20,457 bases of DNA from a virus, in the IMG/VR virus record IMGVR_UViG_3300036846_000379, positions 1 through 20,457 of that record. One strand, 5' to 3'. Made by a program: the position numbers and the translations under genes. How positions within the stretch are numbered: the stretch's first letter is position 1; every line of letters begins with the position of its first letter. Under the pieces are notes generated by a model. The model had not been told where the DNA came from. It was given only the letters and a program-made list of their open reading frames with translations, and searched no databases. Below are positions 1 through 20,457 of the stretch, in pieces.

Positions 1-148
1 ATCCAGTTCCAGGCATCTCGGAACGGGGCGGTGATCACATTGAACAGCACGGACAGGGCCCGACCGATGTCGCCCACCAGGTGACCGAAGAAGCCGACTA
101 CCGACCCGACCGCACTGGCTGCGGCGGAGACCACGTCATGCCACACCT
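1..148. repeat. Terminal direct repeat, left copy
   Basis: Bases 1-148 match 20310-20457 except at position 49 (A here, C at 20358). The two ends therefore overlap and the sequence closes into a circle of about 20,309 bp. The tape measure frame continues across the join without a shift, which supports real circularity (or terminal redundancy) rather than a chance repeat. The mismatch changes one tape measure residue: Val in this copy, Gly in the other. Confidence 0.95.
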
Positions 149-3247: not shown

Positions 3248-4504
3248 TTACTTGCTGCTGGTGCTCTTGCTGGCGTGGCTGGCAGCCAGAGGTATCGGGG
3301 TGTAGGTGATCTTGACGAAAGAGCCCGGGTCGGTCACCAGCGTGGCGAACATGCCCGCTACTCCGATGTTGTAACCCAGCACGCCAACATCGATCACGGA
3401 CAGGCGCACGGGCGCCCCGGCGTTCTCGTAGAATTCCACCGCGGTGGAGTCGCCCACGATGAAGGTGTCCGGGCTAATGAACGGGTCCACCACTGTGGAC
3501 ATGCCCCCGATGCTGGAGACGTTGCCGCGCAGGTCGGCCCCACCCAGGGCGTTCTGCGGGGCCAGGAAGGGGAACATGGGGCGCCCGTCGTCCGACGTCA
3601 GCCCGACCAGAGCCTGATAGGCGTTCAGCCCTAGCCAGATGGTGTCAGGGAACATGTTGTCAACGCTGTTGGTAGCGCCGGTCACCGAAGCCGCGGCCAA
3701 CGTGGTCAACAGCCCGGCAGCCGAACCGTCCCAGGCTGCGGTCTGGGTCACGGCTGCGGCCATGGCGGTGGCCGCGGCATTGTTGCTGTTACGGGCGTAG
3801 ACCGCAGTGAAGTCACTGAAGATCAGGTCAATGGCCGCAGGGCTGGACCGTTCCACCAGCTGCCAGGAGACGTCCACCGCGCCAGCCCAGGTGGCTAGGT
3901 CGGCCTTCAACAGATCCAGTTTGAACTGCCGGGAGGCCACGTCGGTCTTCTGGGTGGCCTGGGCCTGGACGTCCACATGCTGGCTGATGTGGGGTCGCTG
4001 CACTTCCATACCCACCGCGGGCAGCGGCGGATGAGCGAAGCTGTTCACCGAAGGTCTGGAGGTCAGCCACTGCCCGATCACCGGTCCGGTCACCTGAGGC
4101 GGTACCAGCCCGGGCGCCTCCGTGGTGGTCACGTCGGCCAGCACCCGGGTCAGCCTGGACCGGGCCTGGTTGTCGCCCTGCTGCATCCTCATATAGTCCA
4201 TGGCATAGGCGCCCGGACTGGCGTAGGTGCTCTGAATGGCGTTCCCGCCGCCTCCGGCGGAGACCGGATCAGCCGCCCTGGTGATCTTGGCCAGCGTGGC
4301 CGCGGCCCGCTGGTCCAGTTCCTCCCGGGAGGCCAAGATTGTCAGCCGCTCCGCGTAGGACTCCGCCTGGGTCCGCAGCTCGTCCCAGGTGGTCTGCTCC
4401 ACGTCGGTCAGCCCGTCGCGGTTCTCCGATGCGGCCAGTTCCTCAATGCCGCGCATACGGCCCTGAGTCTCGTCAAAACGGTCCCGGATTACGTCTATCA
4501 GCAT
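3248..4504 (-). CDS. Major capsid protein, HK97 fold, with N-terminal scaffold domain
   Basis: 418 residues, ATG at 4504 with GGAAG seven bases upstream. The first ~85 residues are a charged helical domain (RDRFDETQGRMRGIEELAA, then RTQAESYAERLTILASREEL) like the HK97 delta domain that acts as built-in scaffold and is normally removed by the prohead protease encoded upstream. The rest has HK97 family features: 'GLVPPQVTGPVIGQWLTSRP' near residue 130-150, a spine-helix region, 'NMFPDTIWLGLNAYQALVGL', 'GGADLRGNVSSIGGMSTVVDP', and the C-terminal 'FIVGDSTAVEFYENAGAPVRLSV'. The nearly 300-base leader upstream, containing a large inverted repeat, is unusual in this tightly packed genome and may control expression of this highly made protein. 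Confidence 0.93.
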   Translation of the reverse strand: MLIDVIRDRFDETQGRMRGIEELAASENRDGLTDVEQTTWDELRTQAESYAERLTILASREELDQRAAATLAKITRAADPVSAGGGGNAIQSTYASPGAYAMDYMRMQQGDNQARSRLTRVLADVTTTEAPGLVPPQVTGPVIGQWLTSRPSVNSFAHPPLPAVGMEVQRPHISQHVDVQAQATQKTDVASRQFKLDLLKADLATWAGAVDVSWQLVERSSPAAIDLIFSDFTAVYARNSNNAAATAMAAAVTQTAAWDGSAAGLLTTLAAASVTGATNSVDNMFPDTIWLGLNAYQALVGLTSDDGRPMFPFLAPQNALGGADLRGNVSSIGGMSTVVDPFISPDTFIVGDSTAVEFYENAGAPVRLSVIDVGVLGYNIGVAGMFATLVTDPGSFVKITYTPIPLAASHASKSTSSK

Positions 4505-4567: not shown

Positions 4568-4696
4568 CTACGTGGGTACCGGCGTAGCTGGTCCGTCGCC
4601 CGGCTGGGCTGTCACCGGCACAGTAACACCATCGGTCTGGGTTGGGCCAGCTTCTTCAGCAGGTGGATACTGCGGGCGCTCGATATGGCCTATCAA
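4568..4696 (-). CDS. Possible 42-residue Pro/Thr-rich peptide before the capsid gene
   Basis: This frame opens just after the big inverted repeat and stops with TAG at 4568. The only possible start is TTG at 4696, which overlaps the TGA of a 33-residue frame that reads through the repeat (4794-4693). The peptide contains HIERPQYPPAEEAGPTQTDG and VPVTAQPGDGPATPVPT, which looks like genuine linker-type coding sequence rather than a random frame. It has no strong ribosome site. It could be a small real gene, the tail of a gene disrupted by the repeat, or chance. Confidence 0.25.
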   Translation of the reverse strand: MIGHIERPQYPPAEEAGPTQTDGVTVPVTAQPGDGPATPVPT

Positions 4697-4794
4697 CCCG
4701 ACCGTCCGTCTTTAAGGTCGACACTAAATCGTTTAGTGTCGACCTTAAAGACGGACGGTCGGCACGGCGGAGGTTCCGGCCAGCGCCCTGACAT
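4693..4794 (-). CDS. Possible 33-residue ORF running through the inverted repeat
   Basis: An ATG four bases after the zinc-finger gene's stop opens a 33-codon frame (begins MSGRWPEPPPCRPSVFKVDT) that reads through both arms of the 31-bp inverted repeat and ends in TGA overlapping the next TTG. There is no clear ribosome site. It is kept as a low-confidence entry because position and overlap fit the compact style of this genome, but the palindrome explains most of the sequence. Confidence 0.15.
   Translation of the reverse strand: MSGRWPEPPPCRPSVFKVDTKRFSVDLKDGRSG
4698..4762. repeat. Perfect 31-bp inverted repeat with 3-base loop
   Basis: The arms 4698-4728 and 4732-4762 are exact reverse complements separated by TCG. 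The centre reads GTCGACACTAAA-TCG-TTTAGTGTCGAC. It sits in the only sizeable gap of the structural operon, between the zinc-finger gene and the capsid gene. As RNA it would form a very stable hairpin. There is no U-run after it on the minus strand, so it is not a classic intrinsic terminator. The possible roles are an attenuator or RNase III site setting protease-to-capsid ratio, a protein binding site, or a small inserted palindrome. Confidence 0.95.
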
Positions 4795-4798
4795 AAAG

Positions 4799-4972
4799 TC
4801 AGCGAAGCCAGATCTGCGGCTTGGCCTCGTCCGGGTTCTCCGTGTGGGTGGCGCTGTGGGCGACCAATTCCTCCAGTAGCGCGGCTGTGGTGTCGTCCGC
4901 GATCCACTCTCGCCCGCACTGGCGGCAGACCAGCTTGCCGGGCTGAGTGTCGATGGACAGCGGCTGGTTCAT
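4799..4972 (-). CDS. Small C2H2 zinc-finger-like protein
   Basis: 57 residues, ATG at 4972 overlapping the protease stop (ATGA). The cysteines and histidines form C16-x2-C19-x19-H39-x3-H43, within KLVCRQCGREW and ELVAHSATH, so a single zinc site is likely. Small proteins of this type occur in many actinophage structural operons, often near protease or capsid genes, with no established role. Longer upstream versions of the frame overlap the protease gene and are not supported. Confidence 0.7.
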   Translation of the reverse strand: MNQPLSIDTQPGKLVCRQCGREWIADDTTAALLEELVAHSATHTENPDEAKPQIWLR

Positions 4973-5550
4973 CGCTGGATGCGCCCGAAACGGTCCACCA
5001 GGGCCAGTCTGCTCTGAGCCAGGTCGGCCAGGCTGGGGCCTTCTGACCGCTGTCCGGTCACGCCCGCTAGCTCGTAGGCCGGGAACGTGCACAAGCTCAC
5101 TTCGAACAGCCTGACTTCTGTGCGCTCCACCAGATCGCGCCCTTCGGCCCGGTCCTGGGCTCTGGTGATCTTGTTGCCCATAGGCTCGAAACCGATTGAC
5201 AGACCACTGACCACACGGTCACGGATGAGCACGGAGGCATCACGTCCGGCGGGGACGTCCGACAGCTGCCATTCGCCTCGCAGCCCTTCTGGGGTCTCCG
5301 CCAGATACTTGGCGTAGCCGATGCCCCAGCTGCGGTAATCGTGGCTCTGCATCAGCGGCACCGGCTTCGAAGCCCAGCGCTCTTGCAGCGTCTTGGCGAA
5401 GGCGCCCATGCGGAATACCTCGTCATACGGCTTCTTGGTGTCACCGGTGATGGTGGCGGGCTGGTTGTACGGGATGGCCAGGCCGCTGAAGGTCATTCCG
5501 TCGCCCACAGTGTCGAAGCCTTCCAGGGCCGCGAATCTGACTTCTCTCAT
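4969..5550 (-). CDS. Prohead protease (HK97 family)
   Basis: 193 residues starting MREVRFAALEGFDTVGDGMTFSGLA. The features match the HK97-type serine protease that cleaves the capsid scaffold domain: 'F.G.A..Yn.pa......' followed by 'YDEVFRMGAFAKTLQERW', 'VPLMQSHDYRSWGIGYAKYL' (containing the catalytic-type His in 'l..HD'), and 'DRVVSGLSIGFEPMGNK' (containing the catalytic-type Ser in 'glSiGf'). Its ATG overlaps the portal stop (ATGA), the standard portal-protease-capsid order. It probably removes the N-terminal helical domain of the capsid protein. Confidence 0.92.
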   Translation of the reverse strand: MREVRFAALEGFDTVGDGMTFSGLAIPYNQPATITGDTKKPYDEVFRMGAFAKTLQERWASKPVPLMQSHDYRSWGIGYAKYLAETPEGLRGEWQLSDVPAGRDASVLIRDRVVSGLSIGFEPMGNKITRAQDRAEGRDLVERTEVRLFEVSLCTFPAYELAGVTGQRSEGPSLADLAQSRLALVDRFGRIQR

Positions 5551-6908
5551 GCTGGCTTGACCTCCGAGACTGGTTCTGGCGGTGTAGGCGCTGGCGCCGG
5601 TAGCAGGGCCAGCTGTGGCGCTTCGCTGGGTGCCAGTTCGATACCGCCTGTGTCCGCCGGTCCGATGCCAGGCCCACCATCTGCCGGGTAGCCCATCAGT
5701 TCCCTGGCTTCGCCTTCGGTCAGCAGATGGGCCTGGAACCCCTGTACGGCCATGGTGAAACGGGCGGGAGCCTCTGGGCGCAGCAGGTTGCGAGTGTCGA
5801 ACACCGCGGTATTGCCACGGGGCAGCAGTTGCAGGCTCAGCTGCTGTTCCAGCGGCACCAACAGCCGCATGATGGTAGTGCGGATGAAACGGCCGAACTC
5901 GTTCTCAGCATTGGTGTACGTGTGGCGCTGAGTCTCAATACCCAGCATAAATGGCGGGATGCCGAGTGCCATGGCCACTGTCTGGGCGTTCCACTGCCGA
6001 GCCTGGACCAGTTGGGCGTTCTCCGCATCGGACACCAGGGGAGTGAACGTGGTGGACGTGGGCAGCACTATCGGAGTCCGACGTCGGCTGCCGACCGTGC
6101 GCAGCCAGGCGGCTTTCAGTTCGTCCGCCTGGTCCTGGCTTAGGTCAGGACGGCTATCGGTGATAACACCAGTGGGAATAGCCGACTCGTCGAAGTACCG
6201 GCCTGCGAACTCCTCCGCCGCCGACGCAGATGACAGCGCCGCGGACATGGTGGGTATGAGACCGTGCCCCACCAGCTGCCCGCTGCGCCGGTCCAGGGCC
6301 ACGTGCATCAGGTCGGAGCCGTCCAGCATGGTCTCGGTCTCGGCATAGGTGTAGACCAGGCGCCCGGTAACGGGGTGAACGGCTACGGAGACCTGGCACA
6401 CGTCCACCGGCAGGATGCTGGCCGGCCAACCGGTAGAGTCAGGCTCACCCAGCAAACAGACATGGTTGCCGTAGAGACTGATGTCTTCCACGTAGGCATC
6501 GCAGTAGGACGCCAGCGTGCCGTTATTGGCCGGGGCTGGGTTCAGGACCACAGGCGCCGCCGGGATCACCTCGTCGTCACCGCGGAACTGGCGCAGCGGC
6601 ATCTGCATCACCACACCGGACACCAGGCGGAGACCGGCCGTGAGAGGGACGATGCCGCGCGCCCGCCACTCCGAGACGAAGCCAGGAAACATGCCGGGCG
6701 ACCAGCCTGACGACGAGGAGTTCAGCTGGTCCTGTTCGAACATGCGCCTAGCCATCTCCGCCGCGCCCGCCAGGTCACCATGGACGCCTATGTCCGGTAA
6801 GCCGCCCCCGAGACCCAGAATGCCACTGGACCCCCACTGCCCCGATGCCTGACCCAGCGCACCACCCACCTGGCGCACCAAGGTTACTACGCGGTCATAT
6901 AAGGCCAT
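5547..6908 (-). CDS. Portal protein (HK97 family)
   Basis: 453 residues beginning MALYDRVVTLVRQVGGALGQ. It forms the dodecameric ring at the packaging vertex. Family features are visible: 'GLRLVSGVVMQMPLRQFRGD' (typical 'i..ia..ia.lPl.ly'), 'YVEDISLYGNHVCLLGEPDS' (typical 'l..GNay......'), 'DLMHVALDRRSGQLVGHGLI' (typical 'vlHir.......G.Spi'), and 'MALGIPPFMLGI' (typical 'iA..fgVPp.llG'). The C-terminus is Pro/Ala-rich. There is no good ribosome site before ATG 6908, and the 68-base gap upstream is the boundary between the early and late halves, so a late promoter or leaderless start is possible but not evident. Confidence 0.93.
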   Translation of the reverse strand: MALYDRVVTLVRQVGGALGQASGQWGSSGILGLGGGLPDIGVHGDLAGAAEMARRMFEQDQLNSSSSGWSPGMFPGFVSEWRARGIVPLTAGLRLVSGVVMQMPLRQFRGDDEVIPAAPVVLNPAPANNGTLASYCDAYVEDISLYGNHVCLLGEPDSTGWPASILPVDVCQVSVAVHPVTGRLVYTYAETETMLDGSDLMHVALDRRSGQLVGHGLIPTMSAALSSASAAEEFAGRYFDESAIPTGVITDSRPDLSQDQADELKAAWLRTVGSRRRTPIVLPTSTTFTPLVSDAENAQLVQARQWNAQTVAMALGIPPFMLGIETQRHTYTNAENEFGRFIRTTIMRLLVPLEQQLSLQLLPRGNTAVFDTRNLLRPEAPARFTMAVQGFQAHLLTEGEARELMGYPADGGPGIGPADTGGIELAPSEAPQLALLPAPAPTPPEPVSEVKPA

Positions 6909-7216: not shown

Positions 7217-7520
7217 CGGCACCCCGGACGCGCCGGAAGGCCCCGAAGGGCCTCCCGGTCGGTACCACCTGATAAGCGGTAGCTATCGCAAGCACACCCA
7301 GTGTACGCGAACCGGGGACCGTCGCAAGCGGTCCCCGAGTGTTGCGGCGGAGCGTGTGGGATTCGAATCCACGGCTGCTTGCGACAGCAACTCGCTTATG
7401 AGGCGGTTCCGTTAGACCTCTCCGGCAACGCTCCGTCAACACCCATTGTACAAGGGGGGTGTGACAGCCAAGCGTCATCGGCTGGCGCTGATATCCGGGG
7501 TTATCGGTACTAGCGGTCAC
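7209..7520 (-). CDS. Questionable ORF that contains the tRNA gene
   Basis: A GTG at 7520 overlaps the stop of the GNAT gene (GTGA) and has GGGAGG four bases upstream. The frame begins VTASTDNPGYQRQP, with the DNxxY start motif, and ends at 7209 in GGCTAG overlapping the ATG of the next gene. Start and stop signals therefore look real, but the middle of the frame reads straight through a promoter, a tRNA and a hairpin, and its sequence after residue ~15 is Arg/Thr-rich without protein character. It may be a short leader whose reading frame was interrupted by insertion of the tRNA unit. Confidence 0.3.
   Translation of the reverse strand: MTASTDNPGYQRQPMTLGCHTPLVQWVLTERCRRGLTEPPHKRVAVASSRGFESHTLRRNTRGPLATVPGSRTLGVLAIATAYQVVPTGRPFGAFRRVRGADG
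7271..7287. repeat. Diverged GATAA/TATC dyad without a start codon
   Basis: The plus strand reads GATAAGCGGTAGCTATC, close to the start-associated dyads at 9398, 8235 and 7967, and on the minus strand it is followed by CAGG as at 8235. No gene starts here; it lies just beyond the hairpin downstream of the tRNA. Confidence 0.4.
7313..7337 (-). terminator. Hairpin downstream of the tRNA
   Basis: CGGGGACCG (7313-7321) and CGGTCCCCG (7329-7337) pair perfectly across the loop TCGCAAG. The hairpin begins 10 bases after the tRNA 3' end in the direction of transcription. No U-tract follows, as is common for actinobacterial terminators, so termination is plausible but unproven. Confidence 0.55.
7348..7434 (-). 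tRNA. Unusual class II tRNA-like gene with CAU anticodon
   Basis: 87 bases. The acceptor stem GGAGCGT/ACGCTCC is perfect, followed by a G discriminator and no encoded CCA. The D-arm has CCG/CGG. The anticodon loop is CTCATAA, giving CAU. The anticodon stem has only three simple pairs and needs a bulged A to extend. A long variable arm (GCTG-TCGCAAG-CAGC) makes it class II. The T-loop is TTCGAAT, but the T-stem's closing pair is A-C instead of the near-universal G-C. Class II form with GGAG and G73 is serine-tRNA-like, while CAU is read as Met or Ile2. It may be a functional but odd tRNA, a decoy, or a decaying gene. Confidence 0.75.
7445..7471 (-). promoter_or_regulatory. Probable tRNA promoter
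   Basis: On the minus strand TTGGCT (7471-7466), a 15-base spacer and TACAAT (7450-7445) lie just upstream of the tRNA, whose 5' end is ten bases beyond the -10 box. The spacer is short, but the -10 match and placement fit a sigma70-type promoter giving the tRNA its own transcript inside the operon. Confidence 0.5.
7490..7505. repeat. Start-associated dyad, copy at the 7520 start
   Basis: Plus strand GATAT-CCGGGG-TTATC, one base short of a perfect GATAA-N6-TTATC dyad. It codes the DNPGY part of the frame starting at 7520. A further shortened copy (GATATCCGGGGT, then ACTAGCCAT) lies at 7192-7216 at the start of the next gene. Confidence 0.6.
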
Positions 7521-8256: not shown

Positions 8257-8888
8257 ACGAATTCCAGTTGGGTTGGTTGGTCGAGCATGGCGACGAGTTG
8301 GCGGATCATCTCCGGGCGCGGCCCGTGCTTGACCAGCGTGCCGTCCGCGCTATCGGCGCCGAAGATCCGCGCCGACCCGAACCGGACCGCGGTGTTGACC
8401 CGGCCGACATGCGCGTGCCGGCCGCGGGCTTTGGCGGCGGCAACGTGCGCGGCCGCCCACCGCGACAGCTTCCAAGCCGTATCGCCGCCGATGAACACCG
8501 CTTCGGCGTCGACCGGCACGTCGTCGGGGGTCGAGCCGTTCTGGCACACGAAAGCCGGGCGCAGACCCCGGCCGGCCACCTCCTCATGCCATTCGTGCCA
8601 CATTTCGAGCGTGGCCGGATGGTTGCCGGCCAGATCTGTCGGGTCGAAGCGATCAGGGACGACCGCGAACAGGCACCGCTCCGGCCGGAACGCCGAGCGG
8701 TCGAGGGTGCGTTGCCAGGCGTCCGCGTGGAAATGGCCGCCGAAACAGCCGTTGTCAACGGCGTACCACGGGTACAGGTCGATCTGACGGTACAAACCAT
8801 TACCGGGCTGGATCATCAGGCCGAGATCCGCGCGGCCGCGCGCTACCGCCTGGGTGTCGGCGTTGCTCACTCCGGTCAGGTAGATCAC
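8253..8888 (-). CDS. DpdA-like / TGT-fold 7-deazaguanine transglycosylase (putative)
   Basis: 211 residues with a GTG start overlapping the transporter's TGA. The sequence reads like a compact TIM-barrel enzyme of the queuine/archaeosine transglycosylase (TGT) superfamily: 'DLGLMIQPGNG', 'YPWYAVDNGCFGG' (family 'aiDnG.F'), 'RCLFAVVPDRFDPT', 'GLRPAFVCQNGSTPDDVPVD', 'AEAVFIGGDTAWKLS' (family 'ifiGG...wKl'), then 'RHAHVGRVNTAVRF'. Phage members of this group (DpdA types) exchange guanine in DNA for a 7-deazaguanine. It is shorter than classic TGT (~370 residues), as phage forms can be. The preceding gene is a queuosine-precursor transporter and the phage lacks biosynthesis genes (no QueC/D/E or FolE seen), so salvage of host or medium precursor is implied. 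Family identity is by motif memory, not by search. Confidence 0.6.
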   Translation of the reverse strand: MIYLTGVSNADTQAVARGRADLGLMIQPGNGLYRQIDLYPWYAVDNGCFGGHFHADAWQRTLDRSAFRPERCLFAVVPDRFDPTDLAGNHPATLEMWHEWHEEVAGRGLRPAFVCQNGSTPDDVPVDAEAVFIGGDTAWKLSRWAAAHVAAAKARGRHAHVGRVNTAVRFGSARIFGADSADGTLVKHGPRPEMIRQLVAMLDQPTQLEFV

Positions 8889-12671: not shown

Positions 12672-13805
12672 TCAAGCCATGATGGCGGCCATGATCTCCG
12701 CGGCGCGCCGGTCCTCGTCGCCGGCCACCCGGTGGGAGTAGGTCTTGATCACGTTGGCCTCGGTGCAGCCGAGCCGTTCCGCCACCGTGCGGTAGGAGAC
12801 CCGGTGGGTCAGCATCTGGGTTGCGGCGAAGTGGCGCAGGTCGTGCAACCGGCATCCGGTCACCCCGGCCCGCCCGCAGGCGATGGCCCAGGCGTGGGTG
12901 GGATATTCCACCGACCAGTGCTGGGTGCCGCCGTTGCGGGAGAACACGAACAGATCGCGCAGGTCCCCGGCGGTACCGAGCGCCAGCGCCGTTTCCGCGG
13001 CCCGGCGGTAATGGGCTCGCACCGCCTCCAGGGCGGTCGGACCCAGCTCGACGGTGTAGGGCCGGTTGGCTTTGGTGCCCTTGCGCACCGCGCCGTTCTC
13101 GCCTACCGAGATGGCATGCGAGAACAGCACCGCCCCGGTGTCGAGGTCGATCTGGTGCCACTTGAGGGCGGCGATGGTGCCACGCCGGGCGCCAGTAGCT
13201 ACCGCGATCTCGAAGTACGTGGCCGCCGACGGCGAGGCGGCAGCGTCGATCACCCGGCGGATGTCGGCCTTGTCGGGGATGTGCATACGCTCCGGGGCGG
13301 CCCCGCCGGCCGGGGTGACCCGGGCCATCGGGTTCACCCGGACCAGGCCCAGGCGGGTGGCGTCGGCGTAGATCGAGTGGATGATGCCGTGCCAACGCCG
13401 TCGGGTTGGTGCTGCGTACCCGACGCGCGTCCACCTGGCGTACAAGTCCTCGATCTGGGCCGGGCTGACCTCGCCGAACTCGGTGACGCCCAGGGCGGGC
13501 AGGATATAGCGGCGCAGGGCGTAACGGGTCTCCTTGATGGTCTTGGGCGACCAGTCTGGATGGCGGTCCACCCAGGCGTGGGCGGCCGCCGCGAACGATC
13601 CGGCCACGCTGCCGCCGGGCCGCTCGAACTCCAGTTCGTCGAGCACCTCGACCCGCAACCGGGCCTCGACCGCCTCAGCCTGGCGGCGCCCGGCCCGGGT
13701 GTTGGGCGCCTTGAGATCGAGGTTGCGACGCCGGCGGGGCTCACCGGGCCGGTAGGCCGCCACGCTGACCCGCCAGGCGCCCCTGCTCTCGTCCCATCGA
13801 GCCAT
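12672..13805 (-). CDS. int: Tyrosine recombinase integrase
   Basis: 377 residues from ATG 13805, with GAGG eight bases upstream; GTG 13814 would add three residues. The N-terminal arm-binding part begins MARWDESRGAWRVSVAAYRP. A SAM-like core-binding domain ('WVDRHPDWSPKTIKETRYAL') precedes the catalytic domain. Catalytic residues are visible: R207 in 'ATGARRGTI', H321 and R324 in 'LHDLRHFAATQ', and the nucleophile Y356 in 'NVIKTYSH'. The gene lies directly downstream of attP, and the tRNA fragment in attP points toward it, so after integration transcription from the host tRNA could enter int. Confidence 0.95.
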   Translation of the reverse strand: MARWDESRGAWRVSVAAYRPGEPRRRRNLDLKAPNTRAGRRQAEAVEARLRVEVLDELEFERPGGSVAGSFAAAAHAWVDRHPDWSPKTIKETRYALRRYILPALGVTEFGEVSPAQIEDLYARWTRVGYAAPTRRRWHGIIHSIYADATRLGLVRVNPMARVTPAGGAAPERMHIPDKADIRRVIDAAASPSAATYFEIAVATGARRGTIAALKWHQIDLDTGAVLFSHAISVGENGAVRKGTKANRPYTVELGPTALEAVRAHYRRAAETALALGTAGDLRDLFVFSRNGGTQHWSVEYPTHAWAIACGRAGVTGCRLHDLRHFAATQMLTHRVSYRTVAERLGCTEANVIKTYSHRVAGDEDRRAAEIMAAIMA

Positions 13806-13836: not shown

Positions 13837-13872
13837 CAGTGTACAACGGTTGAAGAGGGCGCGTTCGGGGGG

Positions 13873-14056
13873 TGGCACCACAAGTGGCGCCAAGATTGGC
13901 AAAAACCCAGCAGCCCCAACGGGATTCGAACCCGTGTTCCCACCTTGAGAGTGTGAACCGCAATCCCCCTACCAGCACCTATGTGTCCCTGGCGCCACCA
14001 TCTGGTGGCACCAGCCACGCTCAGGGGATAGGGGGGTGGCACCACAAGTGGCACCA
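13873..14056. other. attP: attP: tRNA-Glu-like core flanked by integrase arm sites
   Basis: The core at about 13911-13952 (minus strand) reads as the 3' half of a tRNA: anticodon loop CTCTCAA, GGTGG, a four-base variable loop, T-arm ACGGG-TTCGAAT-CCCGT and TGGGGCT. This fits tRNA-Glu(CUC). The 5' half is absent. Six copies of TGGCRCCA flank it in three pairs: 13873/13885, 13990/14006 and 14037/14049. Paired repeats around a tRNA-derived core beside int are what arm-type binding sites look like. attB is predicted to be the host tRNA-Glu(CUC) gene. Confidence 0.8.
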
Positions 14057-14238
14057 AGATTTTGGGCACCCTGAGCCGGGCACGAGAGCATCACCGGGTG
14101 TAAGCGACGGCCCCCATCCACGCCCCTGTCCGGAATGCGGGACACAATTGCGGACAAGCTCCTCGGGCCCGCCACCCGGTTCGCACGATCTCCTTGCAGA
14201 GACCTCCTAGGCGCCCCCGGCGGGCCCGGGGTGCTCCC
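14057..14238. other. Non-coding stretch between attP and small membrane gene
   Basis: No convincing gene. A plus-strand frame with CPECGT at about 14129 looks zinc-ribbon-like but has no start, and minus-strand frames are short. GCAAGGAG followed by GTG (about 14182) opens only a 32-codon minus frame. This could hold remaining arm sites or packaging signals, but I see none I can name. Confidence 0.4.
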
Positions 14239-17405: not shown

Positions 17406-17500
17406 GCCAGGTCAACCCAGACCGTCTCGTGCTCGGCGGTGTCTTCGCCTTCGTCCTCGTCCTCTGGGTCCGGCTCTGGGTAGTGACTTATGTCAGACAT
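17402..17500 (-). CDS. 32-residue acidic peptide
   Basis: ATG 17500 overlaps the 3' end of the preceding gene by eight bases, and its TGA overlaps the membrane protein start (ATGA). The sequence begins MSDISHYPEPDPEDEDEGED and ends VWVDLA. About half the residues are Asp/Glu. No function known; the MSD...PEP style resembles the PEQ peptide before the endolysin. Confidence 0.55.
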   Translation of the reverse strand: MSDISHYPEPDPEDEDEGEDTAEHETVWVDLA

Positions 17501-17858: not shown

Positions 17859-18599
17859 TCAGGTTCCGATGTCCTCGACAAGCAGGATGCTCGGGTTGGT
17901 CGAACTGGCTATCGCGGTCACCGGGCCGACTCCGGTAGCCAGATTGACGTTGAGTTTGTAGGTGTGGCTGCCGGCGGCCGGGACTCCTTGCCAAACGCCG
18001 ACAACGCCGGCCTGGCCGCCACCGCCGGCAATGACAAGCTTGGCCTGGGCATACTGCAGCACCGTTGAGCCTTCCATAAGGTTCAACCGGAACAGATCGT
18101 TAGCGGTACTGGTGTTGCCGAGAGTGTTGAACGTGATTTTCACCCGGCGGGTACCGTCGGCGGTGATCGGCGGGGCGGTGATCCAGTCGACATTCGTGCT
18201 GGTGCTGGCGCTGTTGGTCGTGGTCGACACCTGGGCCAGGGTGCCGGACGGTAAGCCGCGCCACACTCCGGCCTTGCGAATCCATAGCGCCGCAGCGTCG
18301 ACCGTGTAGCACACCGCCCCGTCAGGCGGCGTGGCCCACTGGGCGTCACGATCTGTGACGGAGGCGAAACAGTTGACGGATTGATTCCAGACCGGGTTTC
18401 CCCAACTGGCGCTGCTGATGGTCTGGCCTGGCGAGACCGTGACGTGACCCACCGGAGTACCAGCCAGCGCGTTTATGTCCCGGCCTGCGTCGTTGATGAA
18501 TCGCTGTGGTCGTTCCCTGACCTTCACGGCCACCATGGCCAGGAAGGCCGGATTATCGGCCAGGTCGGCGGCCAGTGTGTCTATGTCGGTTGCTGTCAT
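17859..18599 (-). CDS. Minor tail protein / receptor-binding candidate
   Basis: 246 residues starting MTATDIDTLAADLADNPAFL. A short N-terminal anchor (to ~45) is followed by a segment with collar-like 'VTVSPGQTISSASWGNPVWN', the 'G..i.a..wgN.V......f.s..dRda......dGav.y......l....g' pattern common to actinophage tail fibre or minor tail proteins. A beta-rich C-terminal domain contains 'TRRVKITFNTLGNTSTANDL' and 'GSHTYKLNVNLATGVGPVTA', resembling a jelly-roll or carbohydrate-binding fold. It probably contributes host recognition. Confidence 0.7.
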   Translation of the reverse strand: MTATDIDTLAADLADNPAFLAMVAVKVRERPQRFINDAGRDINALAGTPVGHVTVSPGQTISSASWGNPVWNQSVNCFASVTDRDAQWATPPDGAVCYTVDAAALWIRKAGVWRGLPSGTLAQVSTTTNSASTSTNVDWITAPPITADGTRRVKITFNTLGNTSTANDLFRLNLMEGSTVLQYAQAKLVIAGGGGQAGVVGVWQGVPAAGSHTYKLNVNLATGVGPVTAIASSTNPSILLVEDIGT

Positions 18600-18602
18600 A
18601 AG

Positions 18603-19853
18603 TCAGATGCTCCATATCCCTACGTCCCAGCCGTCCGTGTCCCAACGTCCGCCCACCCAGCGCGTCACGTCACTCAGTACCAGCGTGCCGGTCAGCCCTT
18701 TGCGCACGATGTCCACGGAATAGCCCACCACGGCACAGGTGAACAGTTGGCCTGTGTCCTGCACCATCAGCACGTCACCTATCTCCGCACTGAGCAGCAG
18801 GTCGGCCACATGCGTGCTCTGTCTGATGTCCAGTGCCGCCACCTGAGGATGCAACAGGGGCCAGGCTCCGTCCAGCAGTACCGCTCCGGCCAGCGTGGCA
18901 CTCCAGCCGTCGTCCTGGTTGATCAGGTCGGCACGTTCGTAGGTGTGCGGTCCGAACTGGGCCACGCTGGCGCTGTCCTGGGCCACCACCGCCGCCGGTG
19001 TGTCGCCCTCGATCAAAGGGTCGGCCGCTCTGGTGATGCTCACGACGTTACGGGTCACGGCCGGTTCGCTGTTCACGTAGTTCACCACGCAGACCCAGGT
19101 GTCGGTCTTGTTGACGTCGGCCAGCCCGTAGGCCAGATAGTTCGGAGTCCAACCTCCGGCCTGGCCTACCGGCAGATAGGCCACCTCCCCAGTGCGTTTG
19201 ACCCACAACAGACCGATACCGGTGTCCGCCGCGGTCTGCAACATGACCCACGGGGCCTGGCCCAGTTCGGTACTGATCACTCTGTGGCTGTCGGCTGGGA
19301 TCACTCGCAGCCCGGTAGACCAGGCGGCTGCGTTCAGGATGCGATTCATGCGCTGGTCTATGGTCTCGCCTTGGCCCACGGCTGGTGTCTGTGTCGGTAG
19401 CGTCATGTTGGCCAGTAACCCGGTGGCGTTCAAGATGGGTATGGGCGCGGTACCGGAGGCCCGATCGAAAGGCCAGCCGTCCGTGACTCCGGTGAAGGCG
19501 GTCTGAAAGCTGGCATCACCCACATGGCGCCAGCGCAGCCTCACCGGTACGGCCGGTCCCAGCAACCCTGGGGCCTGTGGTGGCGCCCAGGGGTTGTACT
19601 GGTCTCCGTGCAGCGTCACGCCTCCGGTAGTGCCGTTGATGGCGGTCAGCAGGCCATCGGGCGCAGACGCCCCCGATGCCAGCGTCACCTCTGATGTGTC
19701 ACAGGTGACGTCCACCCATCCGCCGCTGGTGTCGGAGGCCCAGGCCGCGAAGTCCCACGCTGACTGGTCCCAGCCGTTCACGCCGGAACCACCAATAGCC
19801 ATTTCGACGGCTAGCTCCAGGTCGCCCGTGCTGTAGGGCAGTATGGCGGTCAT
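18603..19853 (-). CDS. Minor tail protein, tail hub type
   Basis: 416 residues from ATG 19853, overlapping the tape measure stop (ATGA). The N-terminus 'DLELAVEMAIGGSGVNGWDQ' and 'SAWDFAAWASDTSGGWVDVT' and the phage tail hub-like 'TLPTQTPAVGQGETIDQRMN', 'RILNAAAWSTGLRVIP' and 'LLSAEIGDVLMVQDTGQ' indicate a tail-associated hub protein of the type found at the base of siphophage tails (gp37-like in Rhodococcus phages). The terminal 'DVTRWVGGRWDTDGWDVGIW' is a repeated Trp-rich motif that echoes the N-terminus. It would sit at the tail tip around the tape measure exit. Confidence 0.8.
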   Translation of the reverse strand: MTAILPYSTGDLELAVEMAIGGSGVNGWDQSAWDFAAWASDTSGGWVDVTCDTSEVTLASGASAPDGLLTAINGTTGGVTLHGDQYNPWAPPQAPGLLGPAVPVRLRWRHVGDASFQTAFTGVTDGWPFDRASGTAPIPILNATGLLANMTLPTQTPAVGQGETIDQRMNRILNAAAWSTGLRVIPADSHRVISTELGQAPWVMLQTAADTGIGLLWVKRTGEVAYLPVGQAGGWTPNYLAYGLADVNKTDTWVCVVNYVNSEPAVTRNVVSITRAADPLIEGDTPAAVVAQDSASVAQFGPHTYERADLINQDDGWSATLAGAVLLDGAWPLLHPQVAALDIRQSTHVADLLLSAEIGDVLMVQDTGQLFTCAVVGYSVDIVRKGLTGTLVLSDVTRWVGGRWDTDGWDVGIWSI

Positions 19854-20457
19854 GCCACTGCGATCCCTGGAATGGGGCCGTTAGCCCGAACGTAGGCTTT
19901 GAGACTGTTGACCACCTGGCGCCCCACTTCGGCCGGGTTGACCGATGGCGGCACGTAGACGTTGATGGTGACGTTGCTGCCGCTGTTCTCCCGTACGATC
20001 TGGCGCAGCAGCGCCTCCGGAGCGGCGATCTCGGTCCCCGCCTCGCCGATGACGCCAACCGTAGCCCGGGTGAACACTCCGCCTCGGGCGAAGGTGGGCA
20101 GATGCCAGGGTGGACGCCAGTCGAACCCTTTACCGTCGATGTGCAGCGCCTTCGTCAGTGGGTTGCTGGGTATGTGGGCCGACAGGTGCACTGCGTTCAG
20201 GGCCCGGGCGATAGGGTTCCAAACCACCTTCAGCGCACCCACCAGGAAGTTGAACGCGCTACCTATCCCGTTCAGTGCGCTGTGCAGCGGCCCCACGAAA
20301 TGGGAACTGATCCAGTTCCAGGCATCTCGGAACGGGGCGGTGATCACATTGAACAGCCCGGACAGGGCCCGACCGATGTCGCCCACCAGGTGACCGAAGA
20401 AGCCGACTACCGACCCGACCGCACTGGCTGCGGCGGAGACCACGTCATGCCACACCT
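19850..20457 (-). CDS. Tape measure protein, C-terminal part
   Basis: This is the continuation of the gene that starts at 1286. The frame is open from the window edge to the TGA at 19850, and bases above 20309 duplicate the left end. The segment carries an AAASAVGSVVGFFGHLVGDI helical stretch. A more soluble C-terminus follows, with ARGGVFTRATVGVIGEAGTE, the 'GG...GEAGPE'-like motif often seen at tape measure C-termini, and then a segment rich in V/N (NVTINVYVPPSVNPAEVGRQ). Its TGA overlaps the ATG of the next tail gene at 19853. GTG 20455 is an internal valine codon of the joined gene, not a real start. Confidence 0.93.
   Translation of the reverse strand, partial: VWHDVVSAAASAVGSVVGFFGHLVGDIGRALSGLFNVITAPFRDAWNWISSHFVGPLHSALNGIGSAFNFLVGALKVVWNPIARALNAVHLSAHIPSNPLTKALHIDGKGFDWRPPWHLPTFARGGVFTRATVGVIGEAGTEIAAPEALLRQIVRENSGSNVTINVYVPPSVNPAEVGRQVVNSLKAYVRANGPIPGIAVA
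20310..20457. repeat. Terminal direct repeat, right copy
   Basis: This is the second copy of the 148-base terminal repeat, identical to 1-148 apart from C at 20358 against A at 49. Annotation of the circular genome should keep only one copy. Confidence 0.95.

Follow-up and report, generated by a model that had tools for sequence, protein, structure and literature searches.

What does a perfect inverted repeat of 31 base pairs (bp) do between two head genes of a small phage? The question arises from virus record IMGVR_UViG_3300036846_000379, a complete record of 20,457 bases that was analysed over its whole length (hereafter, the window), in which such a repeat separates a short zinc-finger-like gene from the major capsid gene. 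The answer that we tentatively favour is that the palindrome may mark a transcript end as a hairpin of the U-less ('I-shaped') kind, found in this phage only and located in a variable cargo spot. This role is preferred mainly because long U-less hairpins directly past stop codons recur in three of the four members of its clade, which are small numbers.

A perfect palindrome inside the head operon

Both the head genes and the hairpin are transcribed from the minus strand, and are arranged as follows.

5547-6908, minus strand: portal gene of the head operon
4969-5550, minus strand: head maturation protease gene, peptidase S78 (PF04586, 74 bits)
4799-4972, minus strand: zinc-finger-like gene of 57 amino acids (CxxC...HxxxH in the translation), with homologues at the same place in relatives
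4732-4762, minus strand: 5' arm of the hairpin as read in the transcript, 100% complementary to 4698-4728
4729-4731, minus strand: loop of 3 bases, TCG, between the two exact arms
4698-4728, minus strand: 3' arm of the hairpin as read in the transcript, 31 nucleotides (nt), the exact reverse complement of 4732-4762
3248-4504, minus strand: major capsid protein gene (phrog_2263, 149 bits)

Within the gap of 294 nt that separates the zinc-finger stop (4799) from the capsid start (4504), the hairpin begins 36 nt past the stop and ends 193 nt ahead of the start. The 57-residue protein had no Pfam or PHROG match. Elsewhere between portal and head-tail connectors, according to a gene list chosen by hand, neighbouring genes overlap or directly adjoin each other. 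An earlier reading made from the letters of the window (the sequence-only reading) had placed the palindrome in the one large gap of the operon; this is correct for the head operon and not for the genome, where other large gaps measure 294 nt (7223-7516, containing a tRNA-Met gene), 594 nt (at the integrase gene) and 235 nt. A 43-amino-acid frame with a TTG start directly 3' of the hairpin was unsupported and crosses a conserved leader element (see below).

The exact 31-bp repeat with its 3-base loop and the missing U-run, both pointed out in that reading, were confirmed. Inspection of the flanks and a terminator scan detected no U-run or T-run after the stem on either strand, where it is followed by GTTGATAGG on the minus strand and CACGGCGG on the plus strand. 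The RNA of the 86-nt palindrome segment folded at -58.4 kcal/mol (shuffle mean -23.1, z -11.9), and the stem was still dominant when folded within 351 nt of context. It is the sole hairpin of such kind in the window. A palindrome of 31 bp is far beyond chance expectation: the longest perfect arm was 8-12 bp in 60 simulated windows of the same composition (order-2 Markov) and 19 bp across 1.96 megabases of other viral loci.

These features were compared with those of known hairpin classes. A canonical (L-shaped) terminator combines a stable hairpin, which is present here, with a U-run directly 3' of the stem, which is absent. The sequence features of a U-less (I-shaped) terminator are found, namely a strong hairpin without U-tail located less than 50 bp past a stop codon on the same strand. 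The uninterrupted duplex also exceeds the length of at least ~20 bp expected of an RNase III site; the supporting sign of such a site, a structure kept in relatives with compensatory changes, is missing, as relatives have no hairpin there.

The two ends of the window (1-148 and 20310-20457) overlap by 148 bases with a single mismatch, and the record therefore probably represents a closed circular genome of ~20.3 kilobases.

It is conceivable that a fold-back chimera formed during library making, in assembly or amplification, and created the second arm. The hairpin is known from a single metagenome-derived record whose ends overlap imperfectly, and the site occurs in no other record. However, fold-back chimeras mirror long stretches and only 31 bp are mirrored here; in addition, each flank is unique, and gene order runs on through both as expected. 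We regard an artefact as very unlikely.

Relatives and the spot before the capsid gene

Capsid searches of the viral collection yielded 38 related loci. No comparable hairpin was detected in any of them within 700 nt upstream of the capsid gene (a shorter stretch for a few), and it is missing from all 36 relatives in which one stretch covers both protease and capsid. Their strongest 75-nt folds between the two genes ranged from -36.9 to -53.3 kcal/mol, versus -59.0 in the window. Judged from these loci, this phage alone has the hairpin, which is not conserved. The suggestion that it sets the ratio of protease to capsid thus finds no comparative support. The arms were also compared with the relatives for compensatory changes, as had been proposed, and with no hairpin at the site there was no covariation to score.

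The same comparison bears on cutting by RNase III. This enzyme readily accepts uninterrupted duplexes longer than 22 bp that lie between co-transcribed genes; the one here has 31 bp, is placed between such genes and is very stable in context. It is possible that the portal-to-capsid message is cut there, that its halves decay at different rates and that the capsid half accumulates. However, the absence of the hairpin in all relatives with the same gene order indicates no conserved need, and no compensatory changes reveal selection on the RNA. On balance this explanation appears unlikely. The earlier proposal of partial termination or RNase III cutting may still hold for this phage, although not as a conserved control device.

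The closest relatives are L130 (capsid 73% identical), L131 and L133; portal and protease searches gave no further clade members. In L130 and L131, the stretch from the zinc-finger stop to the capsid leader contains a gene in reverse orientation.

L130, 2859-3788, minus strand: SprT-like cargo gene with a HEAAH motif and a weak Pfam match below cut-off
L131, 2666-3739, minus strand: SprT-like cargo gene with a HEAAH motif and no Pfam match

The two SprT-like proteins are 64% identical. Because L130 and L131 hold this gene and L133 has a gap of only ~150 nt, the region between zinc finger and capsid is, on sequence comparison, a variable cargo spot that gains and loses DNA. The window is ~140 nt longer than L133 there, palindrome included. 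No SprT remnant was found in the window. Collapse of a cargo gene with flanking inverted repeats was also considered and is unsupported, as no matching inverted repeats surround the cargo of the relatives.

Searches for copies of the palindrome were equally negative. The 31-mer arm had no copy in viral_contigs, and a hairpin core with 13-bp arms was absent from genome_contigs (prokaryotic genomes). Searches with blastn against phages and plasmids returned only weak chance fragments, and among the matches listed in a 7-bp core scan there were only short hairpins, mostly in AT-rich DNA. Two matches to an 18-mer of the arm fell within unrelated AT-rich coding genes (reading FSVDLK) and were judged to be chance. 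Rfam hits were to microRNA models only, far below cut-offs, and such models score any perfect hairpin. No prophage relatives were detected in genomes with two peptide patterns. The flanks share no stretch of 5 bp or more, i.e., there is no target-site duplication, and no second arm copy that could have served as donor occurs within the window. With neither other copies nor a target-site duplication, no element family is visible that would make this a mobile palindrome of the miniature inverted-repeat transposable element (MITE) or repetitive extragenic palindrome (REP) type.

The palindrome might also be a functionless young scar, left by a short inverted duplication (replication template switch) or a small palindromic insertion and tolerated for want of coding constraint in the cargo spot. 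Its perfect symmetry is consistent with this, as are the GC content of the arms (52%, versus 66% for the genome), its occurrence as a singleton in the collections and its location where DNA is gained and lost. On the other hand, the missing target-site duplication and donor copy do not fit, and functional hairpins of the relatives typically sit where this one does, close past a stop codon. A scar is a minority possibility in our view. The exact symmetry had previously been attributed to selection or recent origin; of these, recent origin is preferred to long-term selection.

Long hairpins past stop codons and the capsid leader

Further hairpins were found in the genomes of L130 and L131 (designated L245 and L246, respectively). 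L245 has a 25-bp stem at 13067-13127 and L246 a 23-bp stem at 8361-8412, each with one mismatch and without a T-run. Both lie just before the first head-module gene and directly past the stop codon of a helicase-like AAA_25 ATPase gene, no more than ~20 nt away. By eye, their sequences and that of the window hairpin are mutually unrelated. In the cargo region itself, L130 has an 18-bp stem spanning the zinc-finger stop, and the gap of L131 contains, where the SprT-like gene ends, a perfect 15-bp stem followed by a TTT tail, which by sequence is a conventional terminator. A broader proposal would be that the general transcription punctuation of this clade of small, integrase-bearing phages consists of very long U-less hairpins past stops at module borders, unrelated in sequence in each lineage and repeatedly re-created rather than inherited. 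This we find quite doubtful.

If the palindrome acts at a transcript end, the hairpin would form in the minus-strand transcript past the zinc-finger stop codon, where RNA polymerase would stall and be partly released. The hairpin would also shield the 3' end of the portal-protease-zinc-finger message. Since even partial termination means that capsid needs read-through or its own start, expression of capsid and the genes downstream would depend on read-through, on a start inside the 193-nt leader, or on both. We infer both the termination itself and the downstream promoter, and likewise that recent acquisition or inverted duplication gave the perfect symmetry, the stem being perfect because it is young.

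A candidate for such a start was found in the leader.

4620-4625, minus strand: TACTGT within the leader element GNTACNNTG, candidate promoter (alignment A3)

In the alignment, the element is common to all four clade members, and in L133 a TTGACA, read by eye, is present 17 nt upstream of it. It might be the capsid promoter; consensus scans supported no strong promoter.

A review of mycobacterial transcription (PMC12288462) describes I-shaped terminators that have no U-tail and lie within 50 bp of a stop codon. Such hairpins near stops were reported as the main intrinsic type in high-GC actinobacteria, and this is disputed. The premise of the sequence-only reading that terminators need a U-run is therefore unsafe for such hosts, though the dispute applies here as well. 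The host of the window phage is likely an actinobacterium, because the only annotated phages with a related capsid infect mycobacteria (~24-30% identity).

Several observations weigh against a transcript-end role. The title of Czyz et al. 2014, as cited in PMC12288462, claims a U-tract requirement, and the ability of RNA polymerase from such hosts to terminate without a U-run is disputed; moreover, the host assignment derives only from distant mycobacteriophage matches. A full terminator within the head operon would demand a capsid promoter, for which evidence is weak: the leader element of the window scores poorly against the sigma-70 consensus, and the L133 scan listed no site. L133 and all wider relatives lack the hairpin, and a hairpin scan of the L133 genome revealed no long U-less hairpin. 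Finally, a perfect 31-bp stem far exceeds the needs of a terminator.

A shorter palindrome was detected next to the hairpin by motif search.

4788-4802, no strand assigned: operator-like palindrome CTGACATAAAGTCAG across the zinc-finger stop

A palindromic 14-mer, CTG(A/T)CTTAAG(N)CAG, recurs in L245 and L246, with 6 and 7 matches, respectively (up to 3 mismatches), versus 0.6-0.8 expected. Its sites include positions 1740, 7470, 9253, 13301 and 16729 in L245 and 55, 4426, 7582, 12458 and 17825 in L246. All five CTTAAG sites of L245 fall inside the 14-mer, and several copies in the two genomes are located at gene junctions. Copies in the window are diverged, of the CTGACATAAGTCAG type (8 matches over both strands, at 5 sites, versus 0.6 expected), and include 4788-4802, 17483-17496 and 18593-18606. 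The set resembles an array of repressor operators or stoperator-like sites.

The 31-bp palindrome could itself act at the DNA level, as an operator or as a site of replication or resolution that a dimeric protein binds or that extrudes into a cruciform. Its full dyad symmetry would suit such a role, and the 14-bp palindrome is repeated elsewhere in the clade, with a variant only 26 bp away. However, the 31-bp palindrome is present in a single copy, is much longer than dimer operators and is distant from the integrase and replication genes. In the portion of window proteins scanned, no protelomerase was recognised; there was just an ordinary integrase of the tyrosine type. A protein-binding or replication site, which had been offered as an option in the sequence-only reading, is the least supported rival and most improbable.

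Elsewhere in the window, a protein encoded at 7517-8101 matches the Mom DNA-modification family (PF25680, 28.7 bits, cut-off 27.1); its gene sits just upstream of the tRNA-Met gene (7346-7434). A 31-bp direct repeat, 97% identical, occurs at 13867-13897 and 14031-14061, 164 bases apart and just upstream of the integrase gene, and may represent candidate integrase arm or attachment sites.

If the palindrome does end transcripts, it would offer a clean natural test of the disputed termination without a U-run by high-GC actinobacterial RNA polymerase, and an example of phages quickly re-creating punctuation in cargo spots. If it does not, it is an oddity of a single phage genome.

Comparison with known systems

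The polycistronic messages of T7 and lambda contain established RNase III sites at which cutting was shown. These resemble the window hairpin in having a long duplex between co-transcribed phage genes, whereas the window hairpin is not conserved and its cutting would be a prediction.

Gene 60 of phage YungJamal (PMC4351075) is a reversed cargo gene flanked by imperfect 24-bp inverted repeats. The similarity is that a reversed gene comes and goes in a gap between phage genes, as with the SprT-like gene of L130 and L131. The window gap, however, is geneless and holds only the hairpin and ~230 nt, and the cargo of the relatives is not flanked by matching inverted repeats. Several Cluster O mycobacteriophages of the same study are among the capsid matches; their capsid is distantly related (~24% identity), and they have 12-18-bp stems near gene ends. 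These stems differ in their T-rich tails and in the bulge that two of the three contain; the gene preceding one of them is that of the major tail subunit, and none follows the protease gene.

A parallel in form is provided by the I-shaped terminators of mycobacteria and other high-GC bacteria (PMC12288462), which likewise lack a U-tail and follow a stop codon at no more than 50 bp. The window hairpin differs from them in its mismatch-free stem of 31 bp and its location inside an operon rather than at the operon end, and its termination is a prediction. With modest confidence, the palindrome is probably a U-less transcript-end hairpin of this known type.
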